This document shows, in pieces, positions 37,007 through 50,369 of a stretch of 64,000 nucleotides of DNA. Under the pieces are notes generated by a model. The model searched no databases and was not told the DNA's origin. It saw only the letters and a list, made by a program, of their open reading frames with translations. Positions within the stretch are counted from its first letter, which is position 1. The number at the start of each line of letters is the position of its first letter. The stretch comes from Pontiellaceae bacterium B1224. Lineage in GTDB: Bacteria; Verrucomicrobiota; Kiritimatiellia; Kiritimatiellales; Pontiellaceae. Location: the NCBI GenBank assembly GCA_029432815.1, contig JAROBA010000016.1, positions 1 through 64,000 on the forward strand, read 5' to 3'. A program made the position numbers and the translations under genes.

Positions 37007-37453
37007 TCAACCGCAAATTCGTTTGTAGGAGACGATGGAGTATTCGTCAGTCTCTTCAATCGTGTGGTCGGGGGTAAAATCTTCCAACCATTGGAAATTA
37101 AAAAACGTGTCGCCCTCAACCTCTTTTTTTACGGTCGTCACGAGAATTTCGTCGCACCGATCGATGAGCAGATCATACACCGCCGCGCCGCCGCAGAGAA
37201 TGGCATCGGACGGAACCAGCTCCGGGGTATTCACCGCCGTTGCATTTTCGAAAGCGGCATCGGGGTTGCGGGTGAGCACAAAAATATCGCGGCCTTTCAG
37301 CGGTGGAAGTCCATCGAAGGTGGTGCGGCCGACCACAATTTTACGATCCATCGTCGTGCGTTTAAAAAACTGGAGGTCACCTTTACAGCGCCAGGGCAGG
37401 CCGCCGTCTTTTCCAATCACGCCATTTTCTGAGCGGGCAACAATCGCAATCAT
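37007..37453 (-). CDS. folA: Dihydrofolate reductase
   Basis: A 148-aa enzyme with MIAIVARSENGVIGKDGGLPW (start, substrate loop), VVGRTTFDGLP (NADPH binding) and CGGAAVYDLLI near the end. It reduces dihydrofolate to tetrahydrofolate with NADPH. Coupled to thyA: the ATG overlaps the thyA stop by one base. A palindrome at 37082 encodes FQWLE. Confidence 0.95.
   Translation of the reverse strand: MIAIVARSENGVIGKDGGLPWRCKGDLQFFKRTTMDRKIVVGRTTFDGLPPLKGRDIFVLTRNPDAAFENATAVNTPELVPSDAILCGGAAVYDLLIDRCDEILVTTVKKEVEGDTFFNFQWLEDFTPDHTIEETDEYSIVSYKRICG
37082..37096. repeat. 15-bp palindrome TTCCAACCATTGGAA
   Basis: Exact copy in folA (FQWLE). Confidence 0.9.
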
Positions 37454-38325
37454 TAAACGGCCACCTCGCCTTTGATCGAAGCGTGCGATTCGTAGCCATT
37501 GAGGGTGGCGTGCTGCCACTCCCAGTCGAAGATCGAGTTATAGCCTTCCAATTTTAGGGTCGGCGGGGCAAAGGGTTCGCGCTTCATCTGTTCGTCGAGC
37601 TGTTCCACATGGTTCACATAAATATGGGCATCGCCCAGGAAACCAATCAGCTTGCCGGCTTTCAGACCGCACTCTTTGGCGATGAGCTCTAACAATAGCG
37701 CATACGACGCAATGTTGAAGGGGATGCCGAGAAATACATCGCACGATCGCTGATTCCAGAGCAGATCAAGTTCGCCGTCATTGCAGAGCAGCTGATAGGA
37801 ATAGTGACAGGGAACGAGCGCCATTTCGCCGAGCTGCTGCGGATTCCAGGCATTCACCAGAATACGGCGGCTGTTCGGATTGGTTTTGAGTTCGTGAATC
37901 GCGCGGGCCAGTTGATCGACTCCGCCGGAGCGTTCACCATCCGGGCCGGAATAGTTGCCATTAAAGTTGCGCCATTGGAAACCGTAGATCGGGCCGAGAT
38001 CTTTTTCCGCCGCCATCGCCGCCAGCGTTTCATCGTCGTGGCCGTAGGGCACTTTTGAGGGTGAGCACCACTCATTCCAGATTTTGCAGCCGCGTTCCTG
38101 AAACCAGGCCTTGCTGGTGACGCCCTTAATAAAGCCTTCGAGTTCAACGCGCAGGGTCTTCCATGCCATTTTTTTGGTCGTGAGCAGGGGAAAACCGTTG
38201 GCCATGGAATATTCAAGCATGCAGCCGCTGACGGAAATCGTATCCGTTGCCGTCCGGTTGGTTTTCTTCTTTCCCTCGCGCAGGATTTTTTCAACCACCT
38301 GCCCATATACCTGATCAATATTCAT
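37453..38325 (-). CDS. thyA: Thymidylate synthase
   Basis: A 290-aa ThyA: catalytic cysteine in LVPCHYSYQ (about 172), the substrate loop RSCDVFLGIPFNIASYALL (about 193-211), and the C-terminal Val. It makes dTMP from dUMP, producing dihydrofolate, which FolA then recycles. The two genes form an operon with a one-base overlap. Confidence 0.97.
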   Translation of the reverse strand: MNIDQVYGQVVEKILREGKKKTNRTATDTISVSGCMLEYSMANGFPLLTTKKMAWKTLRVELEGFIKGVTSKAWFQERGCKIWNEWCSPSKVPYGHDDETLAAMAAEKDLGPIYGFQWRNFNGNYSGPDGERSGGVDQLARAIHELKTNPNSRRILVNAWNPQQLGEMALVPCHYSYQLLCNDGELDLLWNQRSCDVFLGIPFNIASYALLLELIAKECGLKAGKLIGFLGDAHIYVNHVEQLDEQMKREPFAPPTLKLEGYNSIFDWEWQHATLNGYESHASIKGEVAV

Positions 38326-38523: not shown

Positions 38524-39642
38524 TTACATCCGCAGATTGCGGCGGTGGTAATGCATGCTGAACTCCTTTTCGACGTTTGCGGGAAGCTCGATCTCGAACA
38601 GGAGCGTGGAGGCGTTCTCCAGTTCATATGTGTCCGAACACTCCGCCATGTCCCACTGACCGGGAATATGCTGGATCAGAGTCAGCTTCACGGGCGTGTC
38701 CTTGAAGTTTTTCAACGTCGCAGTAATGAGCTCGTCCGTGTCGTACAGCACGATTTCATTTTTCTTATTGCGGCGAATATTGATCTGTTTATCGACCATC
38801 TTTTTCTGGGTCACGGTGAGATCGCGACTGTCGCCGATATAGATCTCCATGGTTTCACCCACCGGCGTGAGGCCCGTACGATCCTCGCCGAGTACGATCG
38901 TTCCACCGTTCCCGTCCTGCTGGAACACCCGGGCTTTCCCGCCGTTCAGTGCAAATTGGCCGAGGCCATTTTCTTTGGTATTGGCAATTTTATAGGACAC
39001 CGGAATTCCGACGTTCCCGTCTACCTTCTCCGGGTCCCATGGCAGTTGGGCCGCATCGAACGTCCAGACCTTCTCAATCGGAACCTGGCCAGCATTGAGG
39101 AAAAGCAGCTGCTTGGTCTCCTCGTGCTGGATCCCGCGCTCGAACGCCTCGCCATAGTCGAGCGACACGCGGGCATTCTCAAAATCCTCACCCGAAAAGT
39201 TGCGCAGGATTAGAAAGCTTCGCAAATCGACGTGGGTCTCCTCCTTGTCCGCCACCATTTTATAGGTCACAAGTCGATCGATGTAGGACAGCAGATACGA
39301 GATTCGCACCTTTTGTTCTTTGGCGGTCTGGCTGGCAATCTCCCAGACCAGCGCCTGCTCGTTCGGCGGATAACTGACGTTCAGCAGCGTCACACCCTCA
39401 GCACCGTCGAGGACGGTCAGACGAATGGAATCGGCGTCGATGTTCACGCCTTTCCACGAAAAGTCGACCTTGTTCACGCCTTGCTGCAGCGTCAGCACGC
39501 GCTCCTCTTCGATGAGGGTTGCGGCCGGATTATCGAGCCGAATGTCAGTGTCGCCGCGTTCCGGCAGGGCCACCATTTTGATACGAGCAGATGCGGTTGT
39601 TGTCAGTGTTGCTAAAAATAATATGGTCATTAAGTGTTTCAT
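38524..39642 (-). CDS. Secreted DUF4139-like protein 1
   Basis: A 372-aa exported protein: signal peptide (LMTILFLATLTTTASA), then a beta-rich DUF4139-like region. The phrases VNKVDFSWKGVNIDADSI and SYPPNEQALVWEI match the two neighbouring proteins (VNKLQFSWENTLIDPTSL; LVYPPRVNNLG). It ends with HYHRRNLRM. Third gene after the sigma/anti-sigma pair. Role unknown, possibly surface or periplasmic, made under sigma-factor control. Confidence 0.75.
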   Translation of the reverse strand: MKHLMTILFLATLTTTASARIKMVALPERGDTDIRLDNPAATLIEEERVLTLQQGVNKVDFSWKGVNIDADSIRLTVLDGAEGVTLLNVSYPPNEQALVWEIASQTAKEQKVRISYLLSYIDRLVTYKMVADKEETHVDLRSFLILRNFSGEDFENARVSLDYGEAFERGIQHEETKQLLFLNAGQVPIEKVWTFDAAQLPWDPEKVDGNVGIPVSYKIANTKENGLGQFALNGGKARVFQQDGNGGTIVLGEDRTGLTPVGETMEIYIGDSRDLTVTQKKMVDKQINIRRNKKNEIVLYDTDELITATLKNFKDTPVKLTLIQHIPGQWDMAECSDTYELENASTLLFEIELPANVEKEFSMHYHRRNLRM

Positions 39643-39710: not shown

Positions 39711-41051
39711 TCACTTCTGGTTTTCCCCATGGTAGGTCGTCAGTTGATAGGAAAACGTTTTTGTGGATTCCGGCGGCAGTTCGAGCGTGAACTTGAGGGT
39801 GTTCAGATCGTCCTTTTCGTAGTCGCCGAAATCACCGCTGTTTTCGAGTTTCCAATAGTTGGAACCCACGTTGCGCTTGATTTCAATCTTCACCGGCACC
39901 GGTCGGGTGTTTCGCACTTCGACGGTAAAATCCTTAATCGAGTCGAAGCCGGTAATATGTCCTTTGGAGTGGAAGGTATAATTCGCGGTCGCCTCCTTCA
40001 TCAGCGTCGGTTCAACGATCACGTTTTCCACACGACCCAGATCGAGTTCCACCTTTTCGCCCACCGGGATATATTTAAAACTCGACTGCCCTTCAAAGGC
40101 CAGGTGCGCGCCTTCGCCGGTGCCGCGATAAACCCGCATCGCGCCGCCCGGAATCGGCGTTTCGCCCAGTTCATGATCCTCGTCGTTCTTAAAGCTCAGG
40201 AAACGGCGTACGCTGTTGCCATAGCGTTTCTGATCGAATTTATAGAGGTTCATTACCGGAATTTCATCCGTATCAAAACTCGGTAGGCGCTTGGCCCACG
40301 TGTTCGGAATGGTTTCGGTGCCTTCAATCGTATAGAGGAAATATTCGCTCAGGCCCTCTTTCACAATTTCTTTAGCAGCGGGCATTGCATAACTCGCATC
40401 TCCAAACAGATCGTCTACGCCGCTCGATCGCTCCATCCCGCTGTACATTACCTGCTTCGCTTCCATTAGCGGGCGGGCCCGGGGTGTTGGGGAAGGATTT
40501 CCGTAGGGTTGTTCCCGCCGCGCGAGATCCGCAATCCGGTCGAGCAGGTTCACCTTGCCGACGATCAGGCGTACCTGGGCATTTTCATAATCCTCGCCGC
40601 TGCTATTCGCAACGCGGACGTAGCCCTGCAGACGCAGGGTTGTTTCATCGGGGCTCAGGGTGCCCATATAAAACGCACGCCAGGAAAGGCCGCTCGTCAA
40701 ATAGCTGATTTCCATCGGCGAGGCGCCGCTGATCCGACTGTTGACCGTCCAGAGACCGAGGTTATTGACGCGCGGCGGATATACCAGATCCAGCACATCA
40801 ATTTTATCGGCGTTGGCCTTCGGCATCATTTCCAGACTTGTTGGATCAATCAGCGTGTTCTCCCACGAGAACTGTAGCTTATTGACGCCTTCCCGCAGCG
40901 TCAGCGCGCGGGTCTCGCGTGCCAACGTCATATCGGCCGAGTTGTAGATCGTCAGCTGCGTCGCATCCCGTTCCGGAACCGTCGCCAGATCCACTTTCGC
41001 GTAGGCGCCTGTTGCCGCGGCGATCGCTATCAGTTGTAGTGTTCTTTTCAT
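39711..41051 (-). CDS. Secreted DUF4139-like protein 2
   Basis: A 446-aa paralogue: signal peptide (MKRTLQLIAIAAATGAYA), the core VNKLQFSWENTLIDPTSL (about 54-71), a repeat-type TSGLSWRAFYMGTLSPDETT, and GEDYENAQVRLIVGKVNLL. Very similar in plan to the extracellular part of the anti-sigma fusion at 41086. A palindrome (39850) encodes SNYWK. Confidence 0.78.
   Translation of the reverse strand: MKRTLQLIAIAAATGAYAKVDLATVPERDATQLTIYNSADMTLARETRALTLREGVNKLQFSWENTLIDPTSLEMMPKANADKIDVLDLVYPPRVNNLGLWTVNSRISGASPMEISYLTSGLSWRAFYMGTLSPDETTLRLQGYVRVANSSGEDYENAQVRLIVGKVNLLDRIADLARREQPYGNPSPTPRARPLMEAKQVMYSGMERSSGVDDLFGDASYAMPAAKEIVKEGLSEYFLYTIEGTETIPNTWAKRLPSFDTDEIPVMNLYKFDQKRYGNSVRRFLSFKNDEDHELGETPIPGGAMRVYRGTGEGAHLAFEGQSSFKYIPVGEKVELDLGRVENVIVEPTLMKEATANYTFHSKGHITGFDSIKDFTVEVRNTRPVPVKIEIKRNVGSNYWKLENSGDFGDYEKDDLNTLKFTLELPPESTKTFSYQLTTYHGENQK
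39850..39864. repeat. 15-bp palindrome TTCCAATAGTTGGAA
   Basis: Exact copy in the DUF4139-like gene 2 (SNYWK). The homologous site in the next gene carries another copy (41219, SNHWK). Confidence 0.9.
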
Positions 41052-41085: not shown

Positions 41086-42819
41086 TCACTCTTCACGTCT
41101 CGTTCCATGCTGCACTGTAAGTTCATATTCAATAGTACGTTTACTTTGCGGCTGCACCGTTTCCAGGAACCGGAAATGCTGCGCATCATATTTTTCCACC
41201 GTTTCATCCGTTTCGATTTTCCAATGATTGGAACCCGCCCAACGCATGATTTCCACCTCGACCGGAATGGCTTTGGTATTGGTGATCTCGATCTGCCAAT
41301 TCGTTATTTCGTCCCAACCGGCCAGATTACCTTTGGCATCGAACTCCATGTTTTCCGTTCGGGTGCGCATCAGCTTCGGCTCAACGGTCACCTTTTCCGC
41401 CGCGCCCAGCACCAGTTCCACCTGCTCCCCGACGGGGATGTATTGGAGGTTCGCGGCTTCGATGTAGTGTAAAGGTAGGGCGTGCTCTCCGAGCGCGCCG
41501 CCGTCGTTCGGACCGCTCGGAGAGCGGTGCCTACCTGTTCCGAACACCCGCACGAGGCCTTCCGGCAGCGGGGTTTCGCCGAGCCGGCAGGCTTCGGTGT
41601 TGGCGAACGAGAGGAAACGCATCGTTTGGTTTCCCCAGCGCTCGGCTTCAAATTTGTAGAGATTGGTCACGCCGATCTCCTGCGCCTCGATGTTCGGCAG
41701 CCGCTTGCCCCAGCCATCCGGAATCGTCTCCCGGCCTTCGATGGTATAGAGCTGATATTCGCTCAGGGCCTGTTTGAAGATTTCTTTCTTGGCAAATTCA
41801 AGAGTCATGGGCGCTCCTCCCATGGAGGATAACACGCCACTTGTTGTTGTTACGAACGGTGACCCTAGCTGGTCTTTTTTAGCGAACCCCCAAGCCATGC
41901 CTTTGGAAACGTAGGGGCGGTCAAACGCGTGCTGACGGTTCGCGAGGGCGGCGATTTGGTCTTGGAGATTAACCTCGCCGACGACCAGCCGGGTTTGTGC
42001 ATTTTCATAATCCTCGCCGCTGCCGTTATCAACGCGGATGCGGGATTTGAGCTGCAGCGTCTGTTCGTCGGGGGAAAGGGTGGCTTCGTAGTGGGCATTC
42101 CATTTGAGGCCGGAGGTGAAATAGGTCAGCTCGAACTCGACCTCGCCGCTGAACTCGGAAAAGATCGTCCAGCGCGCCAGTTCGTTGAGGCGCGGCGGGA
42201 AGACCAGCTGCGTGATTTCAATCTGACCGGCGTGCGAAACCGGCGTCAGCTCCAGCGACGTCGGATCAATCAGCGTATTGCTCCACATAAACTGCAACCA
42301 GTTCCAGCCACGCTTCAGCGTCAACTTCCGTTTTTCGCGGACGAGGGTCAGGTCTTCGGCGTTGTAGATCGTCAGCTGCACCTCGTCGCGCCGCGGCAGG
42401 ACGTTGAGCTCAATATTGCTGGCGGGGGCGAAGGGTTTTTCGGCCCGCAGCTCGGCAAGCGAAACTTCGGTAGGGACGGCTGTCCCAGCCGTCCGCCCGT
42501 CGGATGGGTCATCCGGCCGAATCAGCATGAAGGCAATAGCAAGGCCGGCGGCGGCCGCGAGAATCGCAATCGGGCGAAGAGGAATGACCTTCGACCTTCC
42601 GACCTTCCGACCTTCGACCAAAACAGCCTTCAGCCGTTCTTCCGAAACCTCGGGCTGATCGCGCAGGACTTCCAATGATTGGAACTGGGCTTCCAATGCC
42701 TGGAACTTTTGCAGGCAATCGGCGCAGGTTTCGAGGTGCGCGGCGATGTCGGCGCTTTCGGTTTCGGACAGCAGGTCGAATTTGTGGTCCCGTAGTTGAT
42801 CGGCGTGGATGTGGTTCAT
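41086..42819 (-). CDS. Anti-sigma factor fused to DUF4139-like extracytoplasmic domain
   Basis: A 577-aa membrane protein: cytoplasmic zinc-binding anti-sigma domain (residues 1-55) with HLETCADC (Zn motif H-x3-C-x2-C), one transmembrane helix near 82-100 (PIAILAAAAGLAIAFML), and a long periplasmic DUF4139-like domain (about 130-560). It overlaps the sigma gene by 4 nt. The expected role is to hold the ECF sigma factor at the membrane until the outside domain senses its signal. Two dispersed palindromes are embedded in frame (41473, 42474), and palindromes at 41219, 42670 and 42691 encode SNHWK and FQSLE/FQALE. Confidence 0.85.
   Translation of the reverse strand: MNHIHADQLRDHKFDLLSETESADIAAHLETCADCLQKFQALEAQFQSLEVLRDQPEVSEERLKAVLVEGRKVGRSKVIPLRPIAILAAAAGLAIAFMLIRPDDPSDGRTAGTAVPTEVSLAELRAEKPFAPASNIELNVLPRRDEVQLTIYNAEDLTLVREKRKLTLKRGWNWLQFMWSNTLIDPTSLELTPVSHAGQIEITQLVFPPRLNELARWTIFSEFSGEVEFELTYFTSGLKWNAHYEATLSPDEQTLQLKSRIRVDNGSGEDYENAQTRLVVGEVNLQDQIAALANRQHAFDRPYVSKGMAWGFAKKDQLGSPFVTTTSGVLSSMGGAPMTLEFAKKEIFKQALSEYQLYTIEGRETIPDGWGKRLPNIEAQEIGVTNLYKFEAERWGNQTMRFLSFANTEACRLGETPLPEGLVRVFGTGRHRSPSGPNDGGALGEHALPLHYIEAANLQYIPVGEQVELVLGAAEKVTVEPKLMRTRTENMEFDAKGNLAGWDEITNWQIEITNTKAIPVEVEIMRWAGSNHWKIETDETVEKYDAQHFRFLETVQPQSKRTIEYELTVQHGTRREE
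41219..41233. repeat. 15-bp palindrome TTCCAATGATTGGAA
   Basis: Exact copy in the anti-sigma gene (SNHWK). Confidence 0.9.
41473..41536. repeat. In-frame palindromic element in anti-sigma gene
   Basis: Left arm AGGTAGG-NNNN-GCTCTCCGAGCG (41473-41495) matches the right arm (41514-41536) with a 4-bp internal mismatch. It codes the odd phrase GTGRHRSPSGPNDGGALGE, in place of GTGEGAHLAFEGQ in the paralogue, so it looks like a repeat inserted into the gene while keeping the frame. Confidence 0.7.
42474..42494. repeat. Second in-frame palindrome in anti-sigma gene
   Basis: Arms GGACGGCTG and CAGCCGTCC with a 3-bp centre, coding GRTAGTAVP in the linker right after the transmembrane helix. Confidence 0.7.
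42670..42705. repeat. Two 15-bp palindromes in anti-sigma gene
   Basis: TTCCAATGATTGGAA (42670) and TTCCAATGCCTGGAA (42691), 6 bp apart, coding FQALEAQFQSLE near the end of the zinc domain. Confidence 0.9.
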
Positions 42820-43373
42820 CGGTCACCTCCGTCGGGATGCGGCAGTTGCGTGGCCAGTTTTTTGAGGGCGCGCGACATGTGGGTTTTCACCGAACTGAGC
42901 GAACAGCCCATCATTTCGGCCACTTCGGGATAGGTGTGCCCCTGATAATAGGAAAGCACGAGCGCGGCGCGTTGTTTGGGCGGAAGGGTTTCGATGGCGG
43001 CCTGTACGGTCTGGCGCAGCTCGGATTTGGCGGTGGCTTCGTCGGGCCGATCGGTTGCGGCTTCGACGGGTTCGCTGACTTCCAGGGATTGGAAGTCCAG
43101 TCCGCGTTTGCTTTTGCGCAACCGGTCGATGGCAATTCGGGTGGCGAGGGTGAACAGCCAGCTCTTGAATTTGGCGCCGGGGCGGTAGGTGTGCGCTTTT
43201 TGGTGGACCCGCAGGAAAGTTTCCTGAAAGCAGTCTTCCGCCATTTCTCTGTTGTGCAGCATGCGCATAAGATATCCGAAAAGCAGGCCTTGATATCGTT
43301 GGACGAGCGCAGGAAACACGGCGGTGTCACCGCCCCGGTAGGCTTCCATCAGCACTTCGTCTGTTTGCTCCAT
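42816..43373 (-). CDS. ECF RNA polymerase sigma factor
   Basis: A 185-aa ECF sigma: region 2 (YLMRMLHNREMAEDCFQETFLR, about 35-57), region 4 (LSYYQGHTYPEVAEMMGCSLSSVKTHMSRALKKL). It recruits RNA polymerase to its own target promoters and is bound by the anti-sigma protein encoded next to it (4-nt overlap). The start at 43373 is preferred. A palindrome at 43080 encodes FQSLE in the linker. Confidence 0.94.
   Translation of the reverse strand: MEQTDEVLMEAYRGGDTAVFPALVQRYQGLLFGYLMRMLHNREMAEDCFQETFLRVHQKAHTYRPGAKFKSWLFTLATRIAIDRLRKSKRGLDFQSLEVSEPVEAATDRPDEATAKSELRQTVQAAIETLPPKQRAALVLSYYQGHTYPEVAEMMGCSLSSVKTHMSRALKKLATQLPHPDGGDR
43080..43094. repeat. 15-bp palindrome TTCCAGGGATTGGAA
   Basis: Exact copy in the sigma factor gene, in the linker between regions 2 and 4 (DFQSLE). 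Confidence 0.9.
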
Positions 43374-43398: not shown

Positions 43399-43428
43399 TA
43401 TACGTCTGCTACACAGAATCAGTTTACA
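43399..43428 (-). promoter_or_regulatory. Possible ECF-type promoter of the sigma operon
   Basis: Minus strand: TGTAAACT and then CGTATA, with AAC and CGT separated by 17 bp, the spacing of ECF promoters. It lies about 25-55 bp upstream of the sigma start, so autoregulation is possible. Only one site is available to compare. Confidence 0.35.
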
Positions 43429-46487: not shown

Positions 46488-46502
46488 TTCCAACCATTGG
46501 AA
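46488..46502. repeat. 15-bp palindrome TTCCAACCATTGGAA
   Basis: Exact copy ending next to the ribosome binding site AGGAG of the autotransporter gene. Confidence 0.9.
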
Positions 46503-46517
46503 ACAGGAGTTTTTGGG

Positions 46518-49500
46518 ATGACACGCTTTTTATCTATTTTTGCTGTATTGCTGAGCTCGGTTGCGCTGGCTTCGGGCTATACGAATGCTGTGGAAAACGG
46601 CGCCTCGCAGACGGTTGATTCGGATTGGAATGAAACCGCGATTACGGTAGGGGGAAGTTCTTCGAACAATGCATTGATGCTTGTTTCCGGCGCCCGGGTG
46701 ACCAATGACACGACGCAGGTCGGCGGCTCGGCCATTGCCGATGGTAATGCGGTGAATGTGGGGAGCGGTGCTTCCTGGAATATGACCGGCGATCTGACGG
46801 TTGGCGACATGGGTTCCGCAAACAGTTTTGAAATTACGGCGGGCGGCTCGGTTTCCAACAACGCTTCGTTTGTCGGGGTGGATGCGCAGGCTTCGAACAA
46901 TACGGTGAATGTGACCGGATCGGGGGCTCGCTGGGATAATGCCGGTGCCATCACGATCGGTGGCGTGAGCAACGCTGTCAGCGTTTCCTCCGGCGGAACC
47001 GTGGCAGCAAACGACCTGATTTTTTCGACTCCCGGTGTCAGCAAATTCCACCTCCAGGAGGGCGGCACGCTGAACATCACCGGCGCTTACAATGCCGACA
47101 CGCAGACCGACGTAAACTGGGAAAGCGGCGCAGCACTGGAAGTGAACGGCCAGCTGACCATGGACGGTGGTCTGGCGGAAGAGGGGCGTATTCTGACACT
47201 GGGCGGTTCAAATGCCACTTGGTCGATTGACGGTTCCATTGCCGTGGGTACCAACGGAACCGTGACGATTGAAGACGGTGCAACGGTGGTGAACAGTGCG
47301 GGTGGAAGTGTTGATGGATCGGGTAATACCGTGCTGGTTCAGGGCACGGGTTCTGAATGGCAGAATAATGGTGCGTTAACGCTTTCCAATGATAACAGCA
47401 CGGTGACGGTGCAGACCGGCGGTAAAATTTCCGCGGATTATTTAAATATTGCAGATGGAAGCGTGCTCAATCTGATTAACACGGGCACGCTGGAACTCAG
47501 CACGAATTATTTCAATGTTGCGGCCACCAGTAATCTGAACTGGAGCACAGGAACGCTTTCCATTGAAGGCACACTGGAAGGTATGGATACCACCGAAATT
47601 ACTGCCAATGGTTCTTCCAGCACGGCCGCGGTTCTGGCCAATGGACGCGATCTGACGCTCAATGGCGGTGAATGGCAGAACGGAACGAATGATCTGATTG
47701 TCGGCTTCGGAGCCGGCGGTTCAGCCTTGAGCGTGACCAACGGAGGTCAGGCCGTGAATGCCAACGGATATATCGGGCATGGCACCTCGTCCGCCGGGAA
47801 TTCAGTCACCGTTTCCGATGCCGGTTCGCTGTGGTGGAACAAGGGCGGTAACCTTTATCTGGGGGCCTATCTGGACGGCACCAACCTGACGCAAACCGGG
47901 TCCGGCAATCTACTGAATGTGAATGATGGCGCGCAGGTTTTTGTGGGTGAGATTACAAACAACACACCGGGCATGCTGGTGGCTTCCACCAACGGGGCGC
48001 AATTCACCATCTGGAATGGGTCCGCTTTCATTGACGACACCCTGCAGCTCGGCTTCAGCACGAATGCAGCCGGTTCGGTAACGATCAAAAGCGGGGGCTA
48101 TCTTTCGGTGGGGAATCTGGTGATTACCAATGCCAACAGTGCGCTTGATCTGCAGAGTGGCGGTGTGTTTGACATCCGATCTGACTTCGATGTGGCGACC
48201 CGCGAAGCGAACGGGTTCAACTGGAGTTCCAACTCCACGCTGTCTGTCGGCGGTGCGCTGACGGGGAAAACGTCTGATCTCGACAAAGGGCAGGATCTGG
48301 TGCTCGACGGTTCCAACGCGGTTTGGGACATCACCGGGGAAGACCTGGAAATCGGCCTGGCCGGTTCGAGTGTACTGACGCTGATTAACGGGGCCACTTT
48401 GATTAATGCGAACACGACAATCGGAGCCAATACCAATTCCGGAGCGCATGGGGTGGTGCTGAACTCCGGTGCGTTCTGGCTGGCCGACGGCGATCTCACC
48501 ATCGGCGGGAATACCTCGACAAACTATCTCCAGCTCTTCGGCGGATCGACCAACCAGCTGACCGGCTCGGCCACCATCGGCGGAACCAACACGTCCGGGA
48601 ACTATGTGCAGGTGGATGGCTCGAACACGCTCTGGGCCGTCGGCGGGGACCTGACGGTTTCAACAGATAACAGCATTGAATTGGACTCCGATGGCTTAAT
48701 CTCGGTTGGCGGCGACCTGCTGCTGCAGAGCAATGCGGTGGTTTCCGGTGAAGGCACGATCCAGTTCGCTGATGCCAACACAGCCTTATATCTGATGAAC
48801 GGTAACGGGAATCTTTCGAGCTCGGTTGTGTTTGAGGGGGCAGGGAATAATACGGTCGATGTGGATGGCGGAATTTTCTATGTGGTTGGATCCAACTCCA
48901 ACCAGTATCGAAATTTCGAGACCCTGAGTCTGACGGATACCATCCTGTATGGATACGGAACCAACGATGCCTTCGGAATCGTGGACATGACGGGCGGGAC
49001 GATTGCTCCGAGTGATGTCATCGGGGTTGATGGAACGGGCACGCTGATGATTGATGGTGCCTTTACGTCTTCCAATACCACCTATTTTGCGCAGGTCAAC
49101 GGAGATCAGGGCAGCGATCTGCTGCATTTTACCGGAGCCGTGGATCTGACCGGGCTGGTGGCTCAGGTGGTCGTACTGCAGGTGAACACCAACGAAACGA
49201 CCATCCTCACGTCGGATACGGGTTTGAACAACAATTTTATGTCGAACAGCATCGTCAATAATCTGCTGCTCTATGATGCTGATCTCGTTGTCGGGGCGAA
49301 TGATGTGAATGTCGTCATCACGACCAACAACACGCAGTTCAGCTCGTCGCTCGATTATGCCGCAACGGAATCGGTCCGCTCCGGTTTCAGTGCCATGAAA
49401 GATGCGGTCTTCACACGCACCAAACAGCTGCGCCGCAATCTGGTTTCCACTGCGCATTCGATTCCGCACGAAGCATTCCTGATGAGCAACACCAATGCGC

Positions 49501-50369
49501 CCGCCGGCCCGCAGGGGCCGGGGCAGGATAACACCATTTTCGATATGCACGTCTGGATGCAGTTTTTCAATGGGCAGGGAACGTACGATCCGCAGGGCAA
49601 TTCCTATGGATTTGATCTCAATAACAGCGGAACCTCCATCGGAGCCGACCGGCTGATTGGCGACAATATGATCGTCGGGTTCAACTACACCTATGTGCGC
49701 GCCGATGCACGCACCACCAATCAGGATACAATGGACAACGAAACCTACTGGCTGGGTGCCTACGGTGAATGGATCAGCCAAAACGGCCTCTATGTTGATA
49801 CCATGCTTGCATACGGCCGTTCCAACTACGACACCGTACGGGTAGAACAGGATAGCGTGCGGGATTATCAGGGAACGGCATCGTATCGCGGCAGCGAACT
49901 GGGCGCGTATGCCGATGTGGGCCAGTATTTCTATTATAAGAATCTGGCCCTTTCGCCGTACATCGGCCTGCAGTTGCTCACGCTGAAGACAGATGACCAC
50001 ACCGAGCAGAATACCAACGGCCGCAGCGAAATTAACGTGGAAGGGCAGTCACGCAATCTGGTCGAATCCACGCTTGGCATGAAAGGCCGCTACCGTTTCG
50101 ACACGAACCTCGGTCGCTTCCAGACCACCGGCTATGCCGAATGGATGCATGATTTTGTTCAGGACGATGTCACCACCACACTCTCTGCGGATAACCTTCC
50201 GCCGGTCAGTATGGCGGCGATCGAGCCGGATGCGGATCTGCTCAATGTCGGATTGGGCCTGAGCTGGATCTGTCGCGACTACATGGAAATCGGCATCGGC
50301 TATAACGGTCGCTTCAGCGATGGCTATGAGGAGCACACCGGCTCGCTTCTGATCGATATTATGTTCTAG
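46518..50369 (+). CDS. Type V autotransporter with T5SS/PEP-CTERM-type repeats
   Basis: A 1283-aa surface protein: signal peptide (to about residue 19), a long passenger of beta-helix-type repeats with phrases such as GSGARWDNAGAITIGG, GTGSEWQNNGALTLSN and GSNTLWAVGGDLTVS (autotransporter/PEP-CTERM-associated repeat), then a C-terminal 12-strand beta-barrel domain (about 1005-1283) ending in Phe. Expected to be displayed or released at the outer surface. No palindromic 15-mer copies within its 3.8 kb, unlike the neighbours. The start at 46518 follows AGGAG and gives a proper signal peptide. Confidence 0.9.
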   Translation: MTRFLSIFAVLLSSVALASGYTNAVENGASQTVDSDWNETAITVGGSSSNNALMLVSGARVTNDTTQVGGSAIADGNAVNVGSGASWNMTGDLTVGDMGSANSFEITAGGSVSNNASFVGVDAQASNNTVNVTGSGARWDNAGAITIGGVSNAVSVSSGGTVAANDLIFSTPGVSKFHLQEGGTLNITGAYNADTQTDVNWESGAALEVNGQLTMDGGLAEEGRILTLGGSNATWSIDGSIAVGTNGTVTIEDGATVVNSAGGSVDGSGNTVLVQGTGSEWQNNGALTLSNDNSTVTVQTGGKISADYLNIADGSVLNLINTGTLELSTNYFNVAATSNLNWSTGTLSIEGTLEGMDTTEITANGSSSTAAVLANGRDLTLNGGEWQNGTNDLIVGFGAGGSALSVTNGGQAVNANGYIGHGTSSAGNSVTVSDAGSLWWNKGGNLYLGAYLDGTNLTQTGSGNLLNVNDGAQVFVGEITNNTPGMLVASTNGAQFTIWNGSAFIDDTLQLGFSTNAAGSVTIKSGGYLSVGNLVITNANSALDLQSGGVFDIRSDFDVATREANGFNWSSNSTLSVGGALTGKTSDLDKGQDLVLDGSNAVWDITGEDLEIGLAGSSVLTLINGATLINANTTIGANTNSGAHGVVLNSGAFWLADGDLTIGGNTSTNYLQLFGGSTNQLTGSATIGGTNTSGNYVQVDGSNTLWAVGGDLTVSTDNSIELDSDGLISVGGDLLLQSNAVVSGEGTIQFADANTALYLMNGNGNLSSSVVFEGAGNNTVDVDGGIFYVVGSNSNQYRNFETLSLTDTILYGYGTNDAFGIVDMTGGTIAPSDVIGVDGTGTLMIDGAFTSSNTTYFAQVNGDQGSDLLHFTGAVDLTGLVAQVVVLQVNTNETTILTSDTGLNNNFMSNSIVNNLLLYDADLVVGANDVNVVITTNNTQFSSSLDYAATESVRSGFSAMKDAVFTRTKQLRRNLVSTAHSIPHEAFLMSNTNAPAGPQGPGQDNTIFDMHVWMQFFNGQGTYDPQGNSYGFDLNNSGTSIGADRLIGDNMIVGFNYTYVRADARTTNQDTMDNETYWLGAYGEWISQNGLYVDTMLAYGRSNYDTVRVEQDSVRDYQGTASYRGSELGAYADVGQYFYYKNLALSPYIGLQLLTLKTDDHTEQNTNGRSEINVEGQSRNLVESTLGMKGRYRFDTNLGRFQTTGYAEWMHDFVQDDVTTTLSADNLPPVSMAAIEPDADLLNVGLGLSWICRDYMEIGIGYNGRFSDGYEEHTGSLLIDIMF

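Follow-up and report, generated by a model that had tools for sequence, protein, structure and literature searches.

In a stretch of 64,000 nucleotides from Pontiellaceae bacterium B1224 (contig JAROBA010000016.1 of assembly GCA_029432815.1, positions 1 to 64,000; hereafter the window), four minus-strand genes form an operon. They encode an extracytoplasmic function (ECF) sigma factor, an anti-sigma factor that crosses the membrane once and has a DUF4139 ectodomain, and two secreted relatives of that ectodomain, here called D2 and D3. In related bacteria the same promoter stands before genes for serpins and alpha-2-macroglobulins, an indication of defence against proteases. We propose that the operon encodes a sigma/anti-sigma switch that mounts an anti-protease response of the envelope, in which DUF4139 serves both as the sensor domain and as the secreted output, and give this reading a probability of about 60%. 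The switch would probably defend the cell surface against protease attack. The parts of the operon are as follows.

43400..43428, minus strand: ECF-type promoter TGTAAACTGATTCTGTGTAGCAGACGTAT, with TGTAAAC at -35 and CGTAT at -10, about 25 nucleotides 5′ of the sigma start codon
42816..43376, minus strand: ECF sigma factor, 186 amino acids (aa), the likely start being the ATG at 43373
41086..42819, minus strand: membrane anti-sigma factor, 577 aa, with an anti-sigma domain (residues 1-57), a transmembrane helix (about 79-100), a linker and the ectodomain (about 129-577)
39711..41051, minus strand: D2, secreted DUF4139 paralogue, 446 aa, with a signal peptide followed by KVDLATVPERD
38524..39642, minus strand: D3, shorter secreted paralogue, 372 aa, without the variable loop

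The anti-sigma ectodomain recurs in two secreted proteins

The sigma protein matched Sigma70_r2 (E 4e-20) and Sigma70_r4_2 (E 3e-21), both over the Pfam cut-off, and scored 128 bits against TIGR02937 (sigma70-ECF), also over the cut-off. As in ECF factors generally, it has regions 2 and 4 only, in about 190 aa, and a promoter motif of the autoregulatory ECF type (AAC at -35, CGT at -10, spacer of 16-17 nucleotides) is present before its gene. The 3′ end of this gene overlaps the start of the anti-sigma gene by four bases.

The anti-sigma open reading frame matched DUF4139 (PF13598) with an E-value of 6e-14 (52.6 bits vs. a gathering score of 31.8). Its N-terminus contains a zf-HC2-like Hx3CxxC motif (HLETCADC), kept in 48 of 54 members of the family; the match to Pfam zf-HC2 is weak, at 18.1 bits below the 22.2 cut-off. 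In the AlphaFold model (pLDDT 73.9), residues 1-57 superpose on the ChrR anti-sigma domain 2z2s_F (Z 7.8, root-mean-square deviation 2.0 A, 28% identity), and a hydrophobic helix at about residues 79-100 follows this N-terminal domain. With an N-terminal Hx3CxxC domain and a gene beside that of an ECF sigma factor, the protein is, as judged from sequence and model, a membrane anti-sigma factor of class I (ASD-I/ZAS), and is predicted to inhibit the sigma factor. A Pfam scan up to E 1 gave only DUF4139 and zf-HC2, with neither an RsiV-type ectodomain (DUF3298/DUF4179) nor the RsgI N-terminal domain among the matches.

The sensor ectodomain and D2 are 48% identical over 441 aa, and D2 scores above the 31.8-bit DUF4139 cut-off in its own right (E 1e-12, 48.3 bits). 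D3 falls below it (E 1e-4, 22.1 bits; DUF4140 E 0.03), so that 'DUF4139-like' is the apt wording for this protein; BLASTP aligned it with D2 at an E-value of 2e-25, in two segments of 34% and 27% identity. The N-termini of D2 and D3 both resemble signal peptides. Pfam, BLASTP and gene order thus confirm the first-pass annotation of this DNA, which had described a sigma/anti-sigma pair whose ectodomain recurs as two secreted paralogues. The sensor ectodomain also contains a variable loop (about residues 284-353) that is disordered in the AlphaFold model, ranges from 43 to 108 aa in length and shows 31% identity, vs. 58-68% in its flanks. The loop is found in D2 and not in D3.

Like the MuiA/mucoidy inhibitor family (TIGR02231, DUF4140+DUF4139), these proteins combine DUF4139 with a DUF4140-like N-terminal part, but the three window proteins, at 38.9, 39.9 and 16.8 bits, lie far below the family's cut-off of 112.6 bits. 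We know of no sigma partner for MuiA. Elsewhere in the window genome, two full-scoring DUF4139 genes stand in tandem (G000 C138:51925-54638; L001, L002); their sequences differ widely from those of the operon paralogues.

Foldseek returned six matches below 1e-3 for the sensor model, each to a ribophorin I/Ost1 chain from an oligosaccharyltransferase or translocon complex (best E 6e-6, yet with TM-scores of 0.10-0.17); there were also weak matches to M1-aminopeptidase N-domains. The D2 model (pLDDT 61.7) had no Foldseek match at E <1e-3 and, in other fold searches, only matches of Z <8; a sequence search of the PDB found no relative of D2. From the models, these matches suggest stacked beta-domains and point to no function, and the lack of a match was not taken to exclude any family. 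Of the expectation that all three domains share a fold, the part concerning the sensor and D2 stood, since they share sequence and, in the models, an all-beta fold type; D3 is joined to them by sequence homology only. An RsgI-like sensor of polymers or carbohydrates could also have such an architecture, its beta-sandwich ectodomain binding a polysaccharide and D2 and D3 being secreted binding modules for the same polymer. Some fold matches with Z <8 are indeed to beta-sandwich domains, in glycoside hydrolases and carbohydrate-binding modules, but such values lie within the chance range for common folds by the fold tool's own note. With no glycoside hydrolase among the operon inserts or behind the stringent promoter motif described below, we consider a polymer sensor highly improbable.

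The gene order is conserved in two phyla

We searched 84,980 species genomes for relatives of the anti-sigma factor. This yielded 57 loci, nearly all in metagenome-assembled genomes (MAGs) of Phycisphaerae, Sedimentisphaerales and other Planctomycetota, together with Kiritimatiellota/Lentisphaerae; related genomes are not independent, so the counts here and below overstate the number of separate events. An ECF sigma gene lies directly upstream of the anti-sigma gene in 55 or 56 of the 57 loci, the exceptions being contigs that begin inside the anti-sigma gene. In 46 of the 48 loci whose contig continues downstream (all but L031 and L053), D2 and/or D3 follow, and it is common to find two or three copies. 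The recurrence in other phyla of the order sigma, anti-sigma-DUF4139, D2/D3 excludes chance, and the arrangement extends well beyond the strain, as the first-pass annotation required, in Planctomycetota as well as Kiritimatiellota.

Closer to the window, the system is patchy, though not strain-specific. Thirteen of 241 genomes of its phylum had a match, and at the loci read the sigma/anti-sigma part was present only in the window and one congener; within the genus, one of five other sampled genomes has the system. In a tree of 141 proteins, D3 forms a single clade across phyla (support 99), while the sensor and D2 labels need three changes each. The window sensor, D2 and D3 each stand beside their Kiritimatiellota counterparts and then join planctomycete members of the same class. 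This grouping by class across phyla implies that the branches are older than the phylum split or were transferred together. Pairs of D2 and D3 also occur with no sigma or anti-sigma gene at the loci read in other Kiritimatiellota genomes (L077, L079-L082), which suggests that these two proteins work together as an independent pair.

The retention of sensor, D2 and D3 together as old paralogues, and the pairs that lack a sigma gene, would both fit a self-monitoring system. According to this explanation, the sensor ectodomain is held in a structural complex with D2 and D3, and loss or misassembly of the complex upon envelope damage of any kind frees the sigma factor, the inhibitors being part of a general repair response without protease as the specific signal. 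The promoter data presented in the next section bear on it directly.

Some operons of relatives contain additional genes. At two loci (L014:9901-11220 and L037:9930-11264), a gene between those for the anti-sigma factor and D3 encodes a secreted protein of about 440 aa that has no Pfam match. A PDB search with the L037 copy gave no match, and the protein is possibly a new component of the system. At two others (L010:7529-9136 and L034:10686-12278), the insert encodes a secreted protein of 530 aa that ends in an AhpC/TSA thioredoxin-like domain.

The sigma-gene promoter also precedes protease inhibitor genes in relatives

The regions upstream of the sigma genes share TGTCAACC, 16 bases and CGTCT, an ECF-like arrangement whose Kiritimatiellota form is TGTAAACT-N16-CGTAT. 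The promoter occurs in conserved form at 37 relative loci. All motif counts given here come from pattern searches. In 50 planctomycete carrier genomes, the stringent motif TGTCAACC-N7-TANNATNNNCGT had 30 matches, vs. 0 for a reversed control pattern. Nineteen of the 30 precede the sigma operon. The other 11 stand before six serpins, one alpha-2-macroglobulin (2008 aa, with MG2, A2M and bMG10 domains), three DUF4139 units (two stand-alone D2 genes, and one gene for a 366-aa protein followed by D2) and one GLUG-repeat protein. Bacterial serpins and alpha-2-macroglobulins are protease inhibitors. A slightly different exact form of the motif also finds a MuiA-like DUF4139 gene (L124/L219). For Kiritimatiellota carriers we counted exact matches only, one-mismatch patterns doing little better than controls; in one Kiritimatiellota/Lentisphaerae carrier (L007), an exact unlinked motif lies 33 nucleotides 5′ of a gene for a 2009-aa alpha-2-macroglobulin with a bait-region domain.

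Two promoter-linked proteins may be described separately. The 366-aa protein (L218:749-1846, genome G572) starts like D2, with a signal peptide and AKVDLVTLPSRDT, and continues into an unrelated domain. In a genome of the window's genus (G058), a perfect motif precedes the gene for a 147-aa orphan with a signal-like N-terminus and no Pfam match (L254:623-1063).

With a weight matrix trained on the sigma-gene sites only, a score of 11 or more was found upstream of 14 of 30 carrier serpins, vs. one of 318 control genes, the lone control above the threshold being the GLUG gene with its perfect site. In five more operons (L033, L043, L047, L048 and L051), a serpin gene separates the anti-sigma gene from the D genes. 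The inhibitory hinge, GTEAAAAT or a near variant, is retained in nearly all of the serpins. A serpin tree places every promoter-linked serpin within a single group of 20, to which none of the in-operon serpins belongs; serpins thus probably joined the system more than once. The link from the sigma factor to protease inhibitors is thus well supported at the level of sequence.

The serpin and alpha-2-macroglobulin promoters might instead serve another ECF sigma factor of similar specificity, the DUF4139 system governing only itself and D2/D3. AAC at -35 and CGT at -10 are common to several ECF groups, and serpin promoters differ somewhat in the spacer, often having TATAAT where the sigma promoters have TACGAT. 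However, serpins are also found inside the operon, and the long motif is absent upstream of 317 of the 318 other genes. Furthermore, in a broad sample of a single phylum (294 genomes) the exact motif was about as frequent as its reversed control, with nearly all sites lying within genes and unconnected to serpins; no exact motif preceded members of the serpin, alpha-2-macroglobulin or DUF4139 families in this sample, except in the known carrier G001. We therefore regard a second sigma factor as highly improbable.

The same data weigh on the self-monitoring explanation. In its favour, the motif is restricted to the operon in the window genome, where TGTMAAC-N17-CGTMT has a single match (43400-43428). 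Against it, a general envelope-stress regulon would be expected to hold chaperones or genes for lipids or the cell wall, and ten of the 11 unlinked stringent sites belong to DUF4139 or protease-inhibitor units. The self-monitoring system that had first been proposed for this operon is therefore not supported as stated, and seems to us unlikely in the general form given above, as the promoter shared with serpins and alpha-2-macroglobulins in relatives points to defence against proteases.

Neighbouring genes

Genes for thymidylate synthase and dihydrofolate reductase (window 37007-38325, minus strand) lie directly downstream of D3. They are outside the conserved unit and do not accompany the operon in the relatives read. 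A few genes away on the other side, the plus strand (46497-50369) encodes a large autotransporter-like protein (1290 aa) whose passenger region is repetitive and whose C-terminus is barrel-like. Scans of the operon for sigma-70 promoters and for terminators gave results no better than shuffled sequence.

A model for a proposed anti-protease switch

The order of the genes, the domains that they encode, the sharing of one promoter motif and the nature of the genes behind it can all be read in the sequences. Beyond these, we infer that the sigma factor recognises the promoter, that proteases are the input, that intramembrane proteolysis transmits the signal, and that D2 and D3 act against proteases. 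At rest, the cytoplasmic N-terminal domain of the anti-sigma factor would hold the sigma factor, with the DUF4139 ectodomain exposed outside the inner membrane as a sensor. Proteases arriving at the envelope would bind or cut this ectodomain, possibly in the disordered variable loop, and regulated intramembrane proteolysis would then remove the remaining stub, freeing the sigma factor. Once free, the sigma factor would direct transcription of the operon that encodes it and of serpin, alpha-2-macroglobulin and DUF4139 genes located elsewhere, in a set that varies with the species. After secretion, D2 and D3 may serve as sacrificial decoys or inhibitors that absorb the same proteases, shielding the sensor and resetting the response. 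The earlier idea that the secreted copies compete for the sensor's ligand is compatible with this model and possible, the most likely ligand then being a protease.

Several observations argue against an anti-protease role. In the window genome itself, the motif is missing before the serpin gene (C117) and before the two alpha-2-macroglobulin genes (C171, C126), so that the regulon of this organism may be the operon alone, and the link to these inhibitors is here an analogy carried over from relatives. No serpin was detected in 19 of the 50 carriers, many of which are incomplete MAGs. The fold search with the sensor and D2 models revealed no inhibitor fold, and the variable loop could be an ordinary linker. 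We also know of no DUF4139 protein that is a demonstrated protease inhibitor.

To our knowledge, little has been described of how bacterial serpins and alpha-2-macroglobulins are induced, the best case that we found being a two-component system of Bifidobacterium. The Bifidobacterium breve serpin is controlled by a protease-inducible two-component system (Alvarez-Martin 2012, via PMC8012564). There, as would be the case in our model, serpin expression responds to external proteases; B. breve differs in using a two-component system and a single serpin operon, with no DUF4139 or alpha-2-macroglobulin described. In Bacillus subtilis, the ectodomain of the membrane anti-sigma factor RsiV directly binds lysozyme, upon which intramembrane proteolysis releases sigma-V and resistance is switched on (PMC4183432). 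The window system resembles sigma-V/RsiV in its membrane anti-sigma factor, and would share with it an ectodomain that binds the attacking enzyme and a sigma factor that induces resistance; it differs in its type of ectodomain, in the proposed threat (proteases rather than lysozyme) and in its secreted ectodomain copies, which are not described as operon partners of RsiV. As in the window system, the RsgI ectodomain is of a kind also found in secreted proteins, in that case under the control of SigI. In Clostridium thermocellum, however, RsgI is a sensor of plant polymers and cellulosome genes form the output (PMC12203970, PMC6056542), whereas the output here consists of DUF4139 proteins and protease inhibitors. 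In agreement with the first-pass annotation, we found no described system of this form in the literature searched: 5.39 million open-access papers, most subscription papers being outside coverage, contained no instance of DUF4139 with an anti-sigma factor, and a serpin with Planctomycetes and a sigma factor was likewise not found. A paper on the CAGE complex (PMC12485934) was set aside, its subject being a protein of about 2,300 aa, with no mention of DUF4139.

More tentatively, the system may represent a dedicated ECF anti-protease response across Planctomycetota and Kiritimatiellota, in which the sensor is a protease bait and the secreted DUF4139 proteins are a new class of decoys or inhibitors beside serpins and alpha-2-macroglobulins; we consider this possible, with the balance somewhat against it. 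The finding ties serpins and alpha-2-macroglobulins to a single sigma/anti-sigma switch in environmental bacteria of two phyla, and offers a lead to what the widespread DUF4139 domain does. With a short, specific promoter that can be moved into laboratory strains, the prediction lends itself to direct testing. If true, the decoy or inhibitor role would be the first biochemical role for the DUF4139 family.
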